Part shown: positions 52,952 to 57,547 of the stretch, one piece after another
Position numbering within the stretch: the stretch's first letter is position 1
How the letters are laid out: each line of letters begins with the position of its first letter
Source: Halorubrum persicum
Lineage (GTDB): Archaea; Halobacteriota; Halobacteria; Halobacteriales; Haloferacaceae
Direction: 5' to 3'
Assembly (NCBI RefSeq): GCF_002727125.1
Contig: NZ_NHOA01000084.1
Span: 1 to 64,000 of the forward strand
DNA: 64,000 nt
Program-made: the position numbers and the translations under genes
Notes under the pieces: generated by a model
Database searches by the model: none
Told to the model about the DNA's origin: nothing
What the model saw: only the letters and a program-made list of their open reading frames with translations

Positions 52952-55012
52952 ATGAGCGAGGAGGAGGCGATCCACGTCGCGGACGTCAGCGAGGGGATCG
53001 GCGGCGACGCGACGGCGGAACCGGGGGCGCCGGTCGAACTCCCGGTCGTCGACGTGCTCACCGGCCGGTCCTTTATAACGGGGAAGAGCGGGTCCGGCAA
53101 GAGCAACACCGCGAGCGTCGTCATCGAGAATCTGCTCGACAACGGGTTCCCCGTGATGATCGTTGACACTGACGGTGAGTATTACGGCTTAAAGGAGGAG
53201 TACGAGATTCTCCACGCCGGCGCCGACGACGAGTGCGACATCGTCGTCTCCCCCGAGCACGCCGAGAAGCTCGCGAACCTCGCCTTAGAGCAGAACGTCC
53301 CGATCATCCTCGATGTCTCCGGCTACTTGGAAGAGGAGACCGCCAACGAGCTGCTCCTGGAAGTCGTCAAACAGCTGTTCGCCAAGGAGAAGCGCCTGAA
53401 GAAGCCCTTCCTCCTCGTCGTCGAGGAGTGCCACGAGTACATCCCCGAGGGCGGGGGGATGGACGAGACGGGCAAGATGCTGATCAAGGTCGGGAAGCGC
53501 GGGCGGAAACACGGGCTCGGGATCGTCGGGATCAGCCAGCGTCCGGCCGACGTGAAAAAGGACTTCATCACCCAGTGCGACTGGCTCTGCTGGCACCGGC
53601 TCACGTGGGACAACGACACGAAGGTGGTGGGGCGCATCCTCGGCTCGAAGTACGCCAGCGCCGTCGAGGACCTCGGCGACGGCGAGGCGTTCCTCATGAC
53701 CGACTGGGACGAGTCAATCCGCCGGATCCAGTTCCACCGCAAGCAGACGTTCGACGCGGGCGCGACGCCCGGACTCGACGACTTCGAGCGCCCGGAGCTC
53801 AAGTCGGTCTCCAGCGACCTCGTCGGCGAGCTCCAGTCCATCTCCGACGAGCAGGAGCGCCGCGAGTCCGAGCTCGCCGACCTCAGACAGGAGCTCGACA
53901 AGAAGGACCGCCGGATCGCCGACCTCGAGCGCGAGCTGGAGGAGGCGCGGGACCTGAGCAGCATGGCAGACCAGTTCGCGCAGGCCCTTCTCGGGAAGGC
54001 CGAGGCGCCCTACCGGGGCGGCGGCGGGCGACCTGTCGCCGCCGCGGAAGCGACCGGCGCACGAGCAGCCGACAGCGCCAATGGCGGTGACGGCGACGAC
54101 GAGGGTGATCAATCCGTGCTCAAGTCGTACGACGAGGCGGTCGCCGCCACCGAGAGCGACGGCGACGGCGACGCAGCGGCCGCGGGAAGCGGCGATCCGC
54201 CGACCGACGGTGAGGCCTCGGCCGCCGACGGCGGCGCCGCGGAAGCCGACGCGACCCCCTCCGCGGACGACCCCGAGGCCCCGACTGCCGCCGGAGAAGG
54301 CGGTGAGGGCCCCGTTGACGACGTCGATCCGGTCACGCGCGCCGACGTGGCCGAGAGCGCGCTCCGGTTCGACGACGCGGTCGAGCTCGGCACCCGCGAG
54401 GCCGTCATCGAGGAGCTTCGGAGTCGGATCGAGTCGCTCCCGGAGCTGTCGCAGGGGATGCTCCGGCACTACCGCCGCGAGGGCGTCAGCGATCCCGTCG
54501 CCGCTCACATCGACGCCGGCGGCGACGGCGACTCCGGGCACGCGTACAGCCGCCACCGACCCGTCCGCCGGGCGGGGCTCATCCGCCACGCCGACCGCGG
54601 CCACTACGCCTACGCCGTTCCCGACCTGATCCGCGAGGCGTATGCCGACCGGCTCGACGAGGAGAGCGTCCGCGAAATCGTCCGCGCGGTCGAAACCGCC
54701 TTCGTCCCCCCGGCCGAACGGAGCTACCCGCCGGACGCCGATCCCTCGGAAGTCGGCGTCCGTGACGACCCGGACGGGGCCGGAGTCGGCGGCGAAGGCG
54801 TCCCGGCCGGAGCCGGCGAGACCGACGCCGGCGAGGCCGCTCCCGACGGGACAACCAGCGCCGGTGGAGCCGATGCCGCCGACGGAGACGGCGTCGACGA
54901 CGGTACCGACGATGGCGACCGGGAGACCGGAACGGCGCTGGACCCCTCTGAGAGCGGCCTGAGCGACGCCGCCCGGCGGATCGCGAACCGCGGACGCACC
55001 GCCGACGAGTGA
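52952..55012 (+). CDS. HerA/VirB4-like DNA translocase ATPase (DUF87)
   Basis: The 686-residue protein has a FtsK-HerA-type ATPase domain with Walker A GKSGSGKS at 44-51, the DTDGEYYG segment, Walker B LLVVEECHE near 155-163 and the ISQRPADV sensor. A coiled-coil region follows at about 290-345. After an Ala/Asp/Gly-rich linker of about 130 residues comes a second folded domain (about 475-600) and a disordered acidic tail. HerA proteins pump DNA, usually with NurA nuclease in repair or with Sir2/argonaute-type partners in defence. No NurA is adjacent. The next genes encode a ComEC-like MBL lipoprotein and DUF3006. Confidence 0.88.
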   Translation: MSEEEAIHVADVSEGIGGDATAEPGAPVELPVVDVLTGRSFITGKSGSGKSNTASVVIENLLDNGFPVMIVDTDGEYYGLKEEYEILHAGADDECDIVVSPEHAEKLANLALEQNVPIILDVSGYLEEETANELLLEVVKQLFAKEKRLKKPFLLVVEECHEYIPEGGGMDETGKMLIKVGKRGRKHGLGIVGISQRPADVKKDFITQCDWLCWHRLTWDNDTKVVGRILGSKYASAVEDLGDGEAFLMTDWDESIRRIQFHRKQTFDAGATPGLDDFERPELKSVSSDLVGELQSISDEQERRESELADLRQELDKKDRRIADLERELEEARDLSSMADQFAQALLGKAEAPYRGGGGRPVAAAEATGARAADSANGGDGDDEGDQSVLKSYDEAVAATESDGDGDAAAAGSGDPPTDGEASAADGGAAEADATPSADDPEAPTAAGEGGEGPVDDVDPVTRADVAESALRFDDAVELGTREAVIEELRSRIESLPELSQGMLRHYRREGVSDPVAAHIDAGGDGDSGHAYSRHRPVRRAGLIRHADRGHYAYAVPDLIREAYADRLDEESVREIVRAVETAFVPPAERSYPPDADPSEVGVRDDPDGAGVGGEGVPAGAGETDAGEAAPDGTTSAGGADAADGDGVDDGTDDGDRETGTALDPSESGLSDAARRIANRGRTADE

Positions 55013-55073
55013 CCGTCGGGACGGAAAGCCGCTCGGCGAAGGGTTCTCACGCACTAGATACCCCCGGTTAAAA

Positions 55074-55103
55074 AAGCGTCACGAGGGGCCACCGGTGACG
55101 CTT
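55074..55103. terminator. Perfect nine-pair hairpin after the HerA-like gene
   Basis: AAGCGTCAC (55074-55082) and GTGACGCTT (55095-55103) pair perfectly around a 12-base loop. An A-rich GTTAAAAA precedes it. It may terminate the HerA-like transcript or be an operator for the next gene, whose AT-rich promoter (TAGATATATTTCAT) starts at about 55113. Confidence 0.5.
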
Positions 55104-55168
55104 CTCGACGTAATAGATATATTTCATATTCGATCAGCTTTACAAGTCGACACCACTCATGAGAAATA

Positions 55169-56629
55169 ATGATCGTTTCTCGGGAGCTGTCGCGCGTCCT
55201 GCTCCTGCTCGGCGTCGTCGTTCTCGCGGGCTGTGCGGGCGTACCGCTCGGTGAGCCGGTGTCCACCGACACGGCACCCGACAGCGGGTCGGATGTCGCG
55301 ACGGCGAACGGCTCCCTCGAAGTTCACTTCATCAACGTCGGGCAGTCCGTTAGCACGCTCGTCATCGAACCGGACGGCGAGACGATGCTCGTCGACACGG
55401 GTCACTACAACGACGACGGGGAGTACGTGCTCGAGTACCTCAGGCAGCGGAATGTCACGCGGATCGACCACCTCGTGACCTCGCACAACGACGCGGACCA
55501 CATCGGCGGGAACGCGGCGATCATCGACTATTACGAGACGGAGGCCGACGAGATCGGCGCCGTCTACGACCCGGGGATCGCGGCGAACACGGTGACGTAC
55601 GAGGAGTACCTCGACGCCGTCGAGGCACACAACGTGACGCTGTACGAGACGCGCGAGGGCGACGCGATCCCCTTCGGCGAGGCCACGGTCGACGTGCTCG
55701 GGCCCCCCGAGCCGTATCTCGAGAACGAGGCCCGCAACGAGAACAGCATCGTTCTCAAACTCACCCACGGGGAGACGAGTTTCATGCTGTCGGGTGACGC
55801 CGAAGACGACCAAGAGGCGTACCTCGTCGACGCGTACGGCGAACAGCTGCAGTCGACGGTGCTGAAAGCGGGCCACCACGGGTCGAGCAGCTCCTCGAGC
55901 GGCGCGTTCATCGACGCGGTCGATCCCCGAGTCGCGGTCGTCTCGAGCGCCTACGACTCGCAGTACGGGCATCCCCACGAGGAGGTCCTCCAGCGCTTCG
56001 CCGACCGGTCGGTGCCGGCGTATTGGACGGCGACACACGGGAACGTCGTGCTCGTCAGCGACGGCACGAACGTCTCGGTGCGCACCCAGCGGGCCGCGCC
56101 GACGGAGCCGCGGTCGGTCCGCGACGGTGAGCCGATCGCTCCCGGGACGGCCGGCGACGCCGCCGAACGAGCTCGGATCGGCGGCGGCGGAGCGGTCGCC
56201 GTTACTGACGGCGGCGACGACGGCGACGACGGCGACGGCGGCGACGACACCGACGACGCTGGCGAGAGCGACGCCGAGACGGCGCCCGAGTCGAACGGCA
56301 CGCTCGCCGTCGCGACGATCAACGCGGACGCCGCGGGCGACGACGGGGAGAACCTCAACGATGAGTACGTCGTCTTCGAGAACGCGGGCACGGAGACGCT
56401 CGATCTGTCGGGGTGGGCCGTCGAAGACGAGGCCGGGAAACGCTACGTGGTGCCGGACGGCGTGACGCTCGCCCCCGACGAGACGCTGACGCTCAGAACG
56501 GGGAGCGGGACCGACAGCGCGCACGAACTCTACTGGGGCGCCGGCTCGCCGGTCTGGAACAACGGCGGCGACACCGTGACCGTCACAAACGCTACCGGGG
56601 ACCGCGTGCTAGCTGAGTCGTACGCATGA
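55169..56629 (+). CDS. ComEC-like MBL-fold lipoprotein with C-terminal lamin-tail domain
   Basis: The 486-residue secreted protein has a signal with lipobox LAGC (Cys22). Residues about 50-310 are a ComEC/Rec2-type metallo-beta-lactamase domain: FINVGQS, the metal motif SHNDADHIGG near 105-114, SGDAEDD and AGHHGSSSSSS. An acidic Gly/Asp linker follows. Residues about 385-485 form a lamin-tail (LTD) domain with NDEYVVFENAGTETLDLSGW. The MBL domain of ComEC is thought to act as a nuclease during DNA uptake. Here it is free and lipid-anchored. It overlaps the DUF3006 gene (ATGA). Confidence 0.88.
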   Translation: MIVSRELSRVLLLLGVVVLAGCAGVPLGEPVSTDTAPDSGSDVATANGSLEVHFINVGQSVSTLVIEPDGETMLVDTGHYNDDGEYVLEYLRQRNVTRIDHLVTSHNDADHIGGNAAIIDYYETEADEIGAVYDPGIAANTVTYEEYLDAVEAHNVTLYETREGDAIPFGEATVDVLGPPEPYLENEARNENSIVLKLTHGETSFMLSGDAEDDQEAYLVDAYGEQLQSTVLKAGHHGSSSSSSGAFIDAVDPRVAVVSSAYDSQYGHPHEEVLQRFADRSVPAYWTATHGNVVLVSDGTNVSVRTQRAAPTEPRSVRDGEPIAPGTAGDAAERARIGGGGAVAVTDGGDDGDDGDGGDDTDDAGESDAETAPESNGTLAVATINADAAGDDGENLNDEYVVFENAGTETLDLSGWAVEDEAGKRYVVPDGVTLAPDETLTLRTGSGTDSAHELYWGAGSPVWNNGGDTVTVTNATGDRVLAESYA

Positions 56630-56925
56630 CTGCGATCGATCTCGCCGACGGCGAGTACACGGCGGTCGTCGATTCGATCGAGGATGGGCTCGCGACCGTC
56701 TTCTTCGAGTCGGACGGTGACGAGGTGGGAAACGCCGTCCTCGACGCCGACCGACTCCCGGACGAGGGGCGCCACGCGGACGCGATACTGGACGTGCGAA
56801 TCGAAGCCGGATCGATCTCGACCGCGACCTACGACGCCGAACGCACGTCGACCCGGTCTGAAGCCGCTCAGGACCGGTTCGATCGGTTGTCCGAACGGCC
56901 GTCGAAAGGCGGCGATCGGGAGTAG
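56626..56925 (+). CDS. DUF3006 family small protein
   Basis: The 99-residue protein starts with YTAVVDSIEDGLATVFFESDGDE, the usual opening of DUF3006 proteins, and has ADRLPDEGRHADAILDV. It overlaps the MBL lipoprotein by four bases, so the two are co-translated. DUF3006 genes are often found next to ComEC-like MBL proteins in bacteria too, which suggests a shared process. It has no signal peptide, so it stays inside the cell. The function is unknown. Confidence 0.85.
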   Translation: MTAIDLADGEYTAVVDSIEDGLATVFFESDGDEVGNAVLDADRLPDEGRHADAILDVRIEAGSISTATYDAERTSTRSEAAQDRFDRLSERPSKGGDRE

Positions 56926-57037
56926 GGAGTCGCCTGCATAGGGCGGCTCCGAGACGCGGTCGTCACCGACTGCCGATGCGTGCCCGCGGTGAACGCTCTG
57001 TCCTCGCGGGCACAGGCTTTCGGTTTTTCCGTACGTC

Positions 57038-57217
57038 AGACGGGGCGTACGGCGTCTCGATGGACTGGGAGAAATACGGACTGAACGAGGTCGCGAAGCG
57101 CGCCGTCTTCGTCGTGGATGAGGACGGGCAGATCGCCTACGCGTGGGTCGTCGACGACACGGAAACTGGCCCGACTACGACGGCGTTATCGAGGCCGTCG
57201 ACGCCTTCACGGCCTGA
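57038..57217 (+). pseudogene. C-terminal remnant of a peroxiredoxin/redoxin gene with a frameshift
   Basis: In the 328-base gap 56926-57253, the frame AYGVSMDWEKYGLNEVA followed by KRAVFVVDEDGQIAYAWV is the C-terminal half of an AhpC/TSA-type peroxiredoxin. The frame breaks at about 57161-57166 (GGAAACTGG) and continues in another phase as NWPDYDGVIEAVDAF up to a TGA at 57215-57217. The N-terminal part with the peroxidatic Cys is missing and upstream sequence is not recognisable. It is a dead fragment. Confidence 0.8.
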
Positions 57218-57253
57218 TCGGGGCGCCCGGGCGAAGTCTCAACCTACCCAATT

Positions 57254-57547
57254 CTAACGGTTCTCTCGCTGCTCGACCTTGTTCAACTCGATCAGCAGCC
57301 GGAAGATCGCTTTCACGAGGTTGGCGTCGACGTCGAAGCGCTCCGCGTTCTCCCCGGCGCGCTCCATCACCCGTTCCTCCTGTCCCTCGTCGGTCGTCGG
57401 GAGGTCGCGCTCGTCTTTCACGGCCGCGACCGTGTCGGCGACGTAGGTCCGGCGGGCGATCAGCTCGACGATCTCGCGGTCGATGTCTTCGATCTCGTGT
57501 CGCAGTTCGTCGAGGCTTCGGTCCTCGGAGTTCGGTGTGTCACTCAT
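57254..57547 (-). CDS. Chorismate mutase, AroQ class
   Basis: The 97-residue all-helical enzyme converts chorismate to prephenate for Phe and Tyr. It has LDELRHEIEDIDREIVELIARRT, with the active-site Arg in the first helix, and the closing KAIFRLLIELNKVEQRE. It is a free-standing domain rather than fused to prephenate dehydratase. It lies 15 bases downstream of the shikimate kinase gene on the same strand, so two steps of aromatic amino acid synthesis form an operon. Confidence 0.93.
   Translation of the reverse strand: MSDTPNSEDRSLDELRHEIEDIDREIVELIARRTYVADTVAAVKDERDLPTTDEGQEERVMERAGENAERFDVDANLVKAIFRLLIELNKVEQRENR

Follow-up and report, generated by a model that had tools for sequence, protein, structure and literature searches.

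NucA–Nin of Bacillus subtilis combines a nuclease with an inhibitor. In Moorella glycerini, the MBL domain of ComEC acts on DNA as a Mn-dependent endonuclease and 5′–3′ exonuclease (PMC12455585). For the haloarchaeal MBL-lamin-tail protein, surface cutting of extracellular DNA was proposed in 2014 and 2016 (PMC3929857, PMC5118699); the homologue Hlac_1867 shows increased levels in DNA-dependent biofilms (PMC5118699), and a thermonuclease with the same lamin tail is required for growth on DNA (PMC3929857).

We analysed a protein of this type from Halorubrum persicum, encoded in a 64,000-nucleotide stretch of contig NZ_NHOA01000084.1 (the window). It has the lipobox, MBL domain and lamin tail of the haloarchaeal MBL-lamin-tail proteins typified by Halobacterium NRC-1 ComA, and its stop codon is overlapped by 4 nt by the start codon of a DUF3006 gene (ATGA). 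A first-pass annotation had joined both genes with an upstream HerA-like ATPase gene as a candidate set for DNA import or processing. ORF calls and domain models place all three genes, with the domains it had named, as follows (window positions):

52952–55012, + strand: HerA-like ATPase, 686 aa; a neighbour, outside the two-gene unit
about 55073–55102, no strand: stem-loop in the gap between the HerA and MBL genes, GCGTCAC...GTGACGC
about 55105–55165: AT-rich, promoter-like stretch after the stem-loop, upstream of the MBL gene
55169–56629, + strand: MBL-lamin-tail lipoprotein, 486 aa; ComEC_Rec2 model E = 5e-37, LTD E = 2e-20
55484–55501, + strand: codons of the metal-binding motif H106-x-D108-x-D110-H111 in the MBL domain, from alignments
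56626–56925, + strand: DUF3006 protein, 99 aa, acidic; PF11213 E = 5e-8

The hairpin reported between the first two genes is thus present. Folding of the whole intergenic stretch is not unusual (z −1.6); the stem-loop and the AT-rich stretch together suggest that the HerA and MBL genes are transcribed separately.

A predicted ComEC-type nuclease at the cell surface

The MBL protein comprises a signal and lipobox (residues 1–22), a ComEC-type MBL domain (about 48–306), an acidic linker and a lamin tail (374–480). Its N-terminal hydrophobic stretch ends in the lipobox LAGC, which is kept across haloarchaeal homologues and would, judging from the motif, place the haloarchaeal enzyme on the external face of the membrane. 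Most homologues lack an RR motif, and the export route looks like Sec. A second lamin-tail protein is encoded elsewhere in the genome, on contig C83 (L002 232–1701, − strand); it has no MBL domain and carries a twin-arginine-like signal.

The description of the protein as lipid-anchored and ComEC-type held up, with the lipobox for the anchor and an intact predicted nuclease active site. The closest solved relative is the Moorella glycerini ComEC MBL domain (PDB 9ic4; phmmer 1e-31), and an AlphaFold2 model of the MBL-lamin-tail protein (pLDDT 87) matches the same structure in Foldseek with an E value of 1e-24 and a TM score of 0.88, the next best match being about 10 orders of magnitude weaker. 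ComEC residues D600, D602, H603, H725 and S728 (PMC12455585) correspond to D108, D110, H111, H236 and S239. The last four of these are invariant in 49 archaeal homologues, and the metal ligands are kept throughout the archaeal and Bacillota alignments except at D108, which is replaced by histidine in methanogens and most clostridia. The motif reads HxHxDH in these last two groups and HxDxDH in haloarchaea and many Bacilli. In bacteria the protein comes with Ada-type metal-binding, lamin tail or Excalibur domains; ComEA-like helix-hairpin-helix domains are matched by two members. From the conserved residues, the MBL-lamin-tail protein is probably a metal-dependent DNA nuclease.

The first-pass annotation had further linked the protein to DNA import of the ComEC type, and this part found no support. 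TIGR00361 matches the MBL part only, below the full-protein cut-off, and the competence pore domain PF03772 is absent from the 486-aa protein and from all 99 family genomes searched, the same search being positive in 10 of 14 control genomes. Without a pore in any of these 99 genomes, ComEC-type import is not supported, and we rejected identity with the ComEC/Rec2 DNA channel. The best reading is of a putative surface nuclease acting on extracellular DNA.

DUF3006 accompanies the MBL domain in archaea and Bacillota

A DUF3006 gene lies directly behind 85 of the 87 MBL genes in the family genomes; the two exceptions are one match split in two and one at a contig end. The start/stop overlap is kept in 35 of 40 haloarchaeal loci, upholding the earlier view of DUF3006 as a co-translated partner, and no other neighbour is conserved in more than 6 of 41. 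The pair sits on chromosomes and on plasmids, including a Halorubrum trapanicum plasmid and pNRC200 of Halobacterium NRC-1, in which DUF3006 again directly follows the MBL-lamin-tail gene. The real unit at this locus is therefore two genes, an MBL-lamin-tail lipoprotein and a translationally coupled DUF3006 protein.

The pair also occurs in methanogens and Bacillota, in several gene orders. When loci were chosen by DUF3006 alone, taking the best-scoring ones rather than a random draw, an MBL gene lay no more than 1.5 kb away in 27 of 30 archaeal loci (phylum-wide) and in 26 of 30 Bacillota loci; no natural fusion of the two was seen among the latter. Of 84 Bacillota loci chosen instead by MBL, with a Bacillota MBL alignment, 61 had a linked DUF3006 gene: it lay downstream in 51, no more than 300 nt upstream in 7, divergent in 2 and farther upstream in 1. 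Annotated bacterial pairs include those on Geobacillus pGS18 and on Exiguobacterium and Priestia plasmids. That linkage stays while gene order changes argues for a functional tie. DUF3006 linkage tracks the MBL domain rather than the lamin tail: MBL versions without a lamin tail still keep DUF3006.

Across 249 Bacillota genomes, with 26 ambiguous ones left out, 106 had both families, 15 MBL only, 16 DUF3006 only and 86 neither, giving an odds ratio of 38 in a Fisher test that ignores shared ancestry. DUF3006 is encoded elsewhere in 11 of 12 Bacillota genomes with an unlinked MBL gene, one of these matches being below the cut-off. The 15 of 121 MBL-carrying genomes with no detectable DUF3006 nevertheless have intact MBL active sites, indicating that DUF3006 is not strictly required. 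Some clostridial DUF3006 genes lie away from MBL, and three of these (L227, L231 and L233) immediately precede a type I signal peptidase gene. DUF3006 is also absent where a Listeria MBL homologue (L122 2908–3750) has lost its metal ligands, with H changed to N and HH to TQ. A strict coupling of DUF3006 loss to active-site decay, which this one case would fit and the 15 intact ones do not, was considered and rejected as a general rule.

A tentative guard model for DUF3006

The DUF3006 protein scores 33.4 bits against PF11213, just above the gathering cut-off of 32.3, and alignment with 56 relatives backs the assignment. It has no apparent signal peptide. Median pI is 4.8 for DUF3006 proteins of Bacillota, whereas three MBL partners from plasmids are at about 9.7. 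The model (pLDDT 77) shows a small β-barrel of five strands and a helix at the C-terminus. It looks OB-like, with EF-P domain II as the best match at a Z score of 7.7, which is a common value. The conserved residues (D16, E19, P45, D52 and T74) appear unlike a nucleic-acid-binding surface.

We propose, with a probability of roughly 0.45, that the locus is a mobile two-gene unit for a secreted surface nuclease and a cytosolic DUF3006 protein handling or guarding that enzyme until it is exported. The first gene would specify a metal-dependent nuclease with a ComEC-type MBL domain that is secreted and lipid-anchored. At the cell surface it would cut extracellular DNA, either to scavenge nutrients (phosphate) or to turn over biofilm DNA, with the lamin tail as an accessory module that may bind the surface or the substrate. 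The small, acidic DUF3006 protein would be made in step with the nuclease in the cytosol and act on it there, most simply as an inhibitor that stops it from cutting intracellular DNA. This proposal is built on the domains, the intact active site, the lipobox, the coupling and the conserved pairing; from these we infer nuclease activity, DNA as the substrate, physical contact between the proteins and the guard function.

Guarding is weakly favoured, and an export or folding role for DUF3006 is its close rival. A Sec-like route carries unfolded protein, which makes a cytosolic inhibitor less clearly needed, and the clostridial DUF3006 genes adjoining signal peptidase I, unlinked to MBL, fit an export role as well. 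DUF3006 might thus serve the same surface nuclease as a factor dedicated to its export, folding or translation, with no inhibition involved. The missing signal peptide, the translational coupling, the minority of intact MBLs without DUF3006 and the modelled OB-like small barrel all agree with such a factor, but the structural matches of the model are no stronger than is commonly seen (Z up to 7.7) and we know of no export chaperone with a DUF3006-like fold. On balance we hold this alternative to be possible but unlikely.

A lower probability still attaches to the idea that the substrate of the MBL domain is an envelope phosphodiester other than DNA, as for the pneumococcal phosphorylcholine esterase Pce. 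Pce is the second-nearest solved structure to the domain; in both sequence and structure, however, ComEC is much nearer, a substrate-binding serine of ComEC (S728) is conserved as S239, and the accessory domains are those of nucleases. To our knowledge, haloarchaea have no choline-teichoic acids.

The HerA-like gene is a neighbour

The HerA-like protein has a DUF87/HerA central domain (E = 2e-12) and the Walker A motif GKSGSGKS, and HerA models match it far below cut-off. As first described, no NurA gene accompanies it at the locus; the genome's NurA is on another contig, C14. In haloarchaea the HerA-like ATPase gene is near-universal and single-copy, occurring in 135 of 148 family genomes with or without the MBL and DUF3006 genes, and normally once (121 of 129 good family genomes). 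The 87 MBL matches are spread over 79 family genomes, and HerA adjoins the MBL gene in only three of them (G000, G105 and G081).

The order trpS–DUF5518–HerA is kept across the genus. In two relatives (G115 and G141), chorismate mutase and GHMP kinase genes also lie downstream of HerA, and unrelated DNA with AbrB/MazF-like gene pairs fills the stretch that separates HerA from chorismate mutase. Positions 55015–57252 of the window are hence a variable spot, occupied here by the MBL–DUF3006 pair. Between DUF3006 and chorismate mutase lies a C-terminal fragment of a thiol peroxidase (57061–57254, + strand; PRK00522, E 2e-5), apparently a remnant.

The co-occurrence expected of the three genes elsewhere was found, strongly, for MBL with DUF3006 and not for the trio. 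A single DNA import or processing set that includes HerA is refuted as a conserved set and very improbable altogether: in this genome and two relatives the genes are adjacent and share a strand, but the next-nearest HerA–MBL distance is 40 kb, HerA has its own context and occurs without the pair, unrelated DNA takes the pair's place in G115 and G141, and the ComEC pore is missing from the 99 family genomes searched; we therefore rejected HerA as a member of the unit.

Comparison with known systems

Where an organism lacks the channel, a stand-alone ComEC-type protein is still routinely labelled a competence protein, and a near-constant partner offers a direct handle on its role. The pairing is also a first functional lead for DUF3006, and it turns external-DNA processing by haloarchaea and many Bacillota into a testable question. 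One could go further and see in DUF3006 a cytosolic antidote or controller of widespread secreted ComEC-type nucleases in archaea and bacteria, forming an undescribed two-gene system for extracellular DNA; we regard this wider view as doubtful, if conceivable. The literature searched, from which subscription journals were mostly absent so that an earlier description is possible, contains no mention of DUF3006 or PF11213.

The nearest described proteins, NRC-1 ‘ComA’ and Hlac_1867, share the lipobox, the COG2333 MBL domain, the lamin tail and the lack of a pore domain, and the term DUF3006 is absent from both papers on them (PMC3929857, PMC5118699). The ComEC/Rec2 MBL domain (9ic4) has the same fold and catalytic residues, but the protein described here has neither pore nor OB domain and is a predicted secreted lipoprotein instead of a membrane channel. 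HVO_1477, a thermonuclease-lamin-tail protein needed for growth on DNA, is likewise a surface lipoprotein with a lamin tail, whereas its nuclease fold is unrelated. Pneumococcal Pce/CbpE, the next-nearest MBL structure, shares 18–19% identity and acts on a different substrate. As a working model, NucA–Nin resembles the pair in concept, as a surface nuclease with a small cytosolic partner, with no sequence relationship claimed. Set against these systems, the MBL-lamin-tail protein was known already, and what looks new is its near-constant partnership with DUF3006 across two domains of life.
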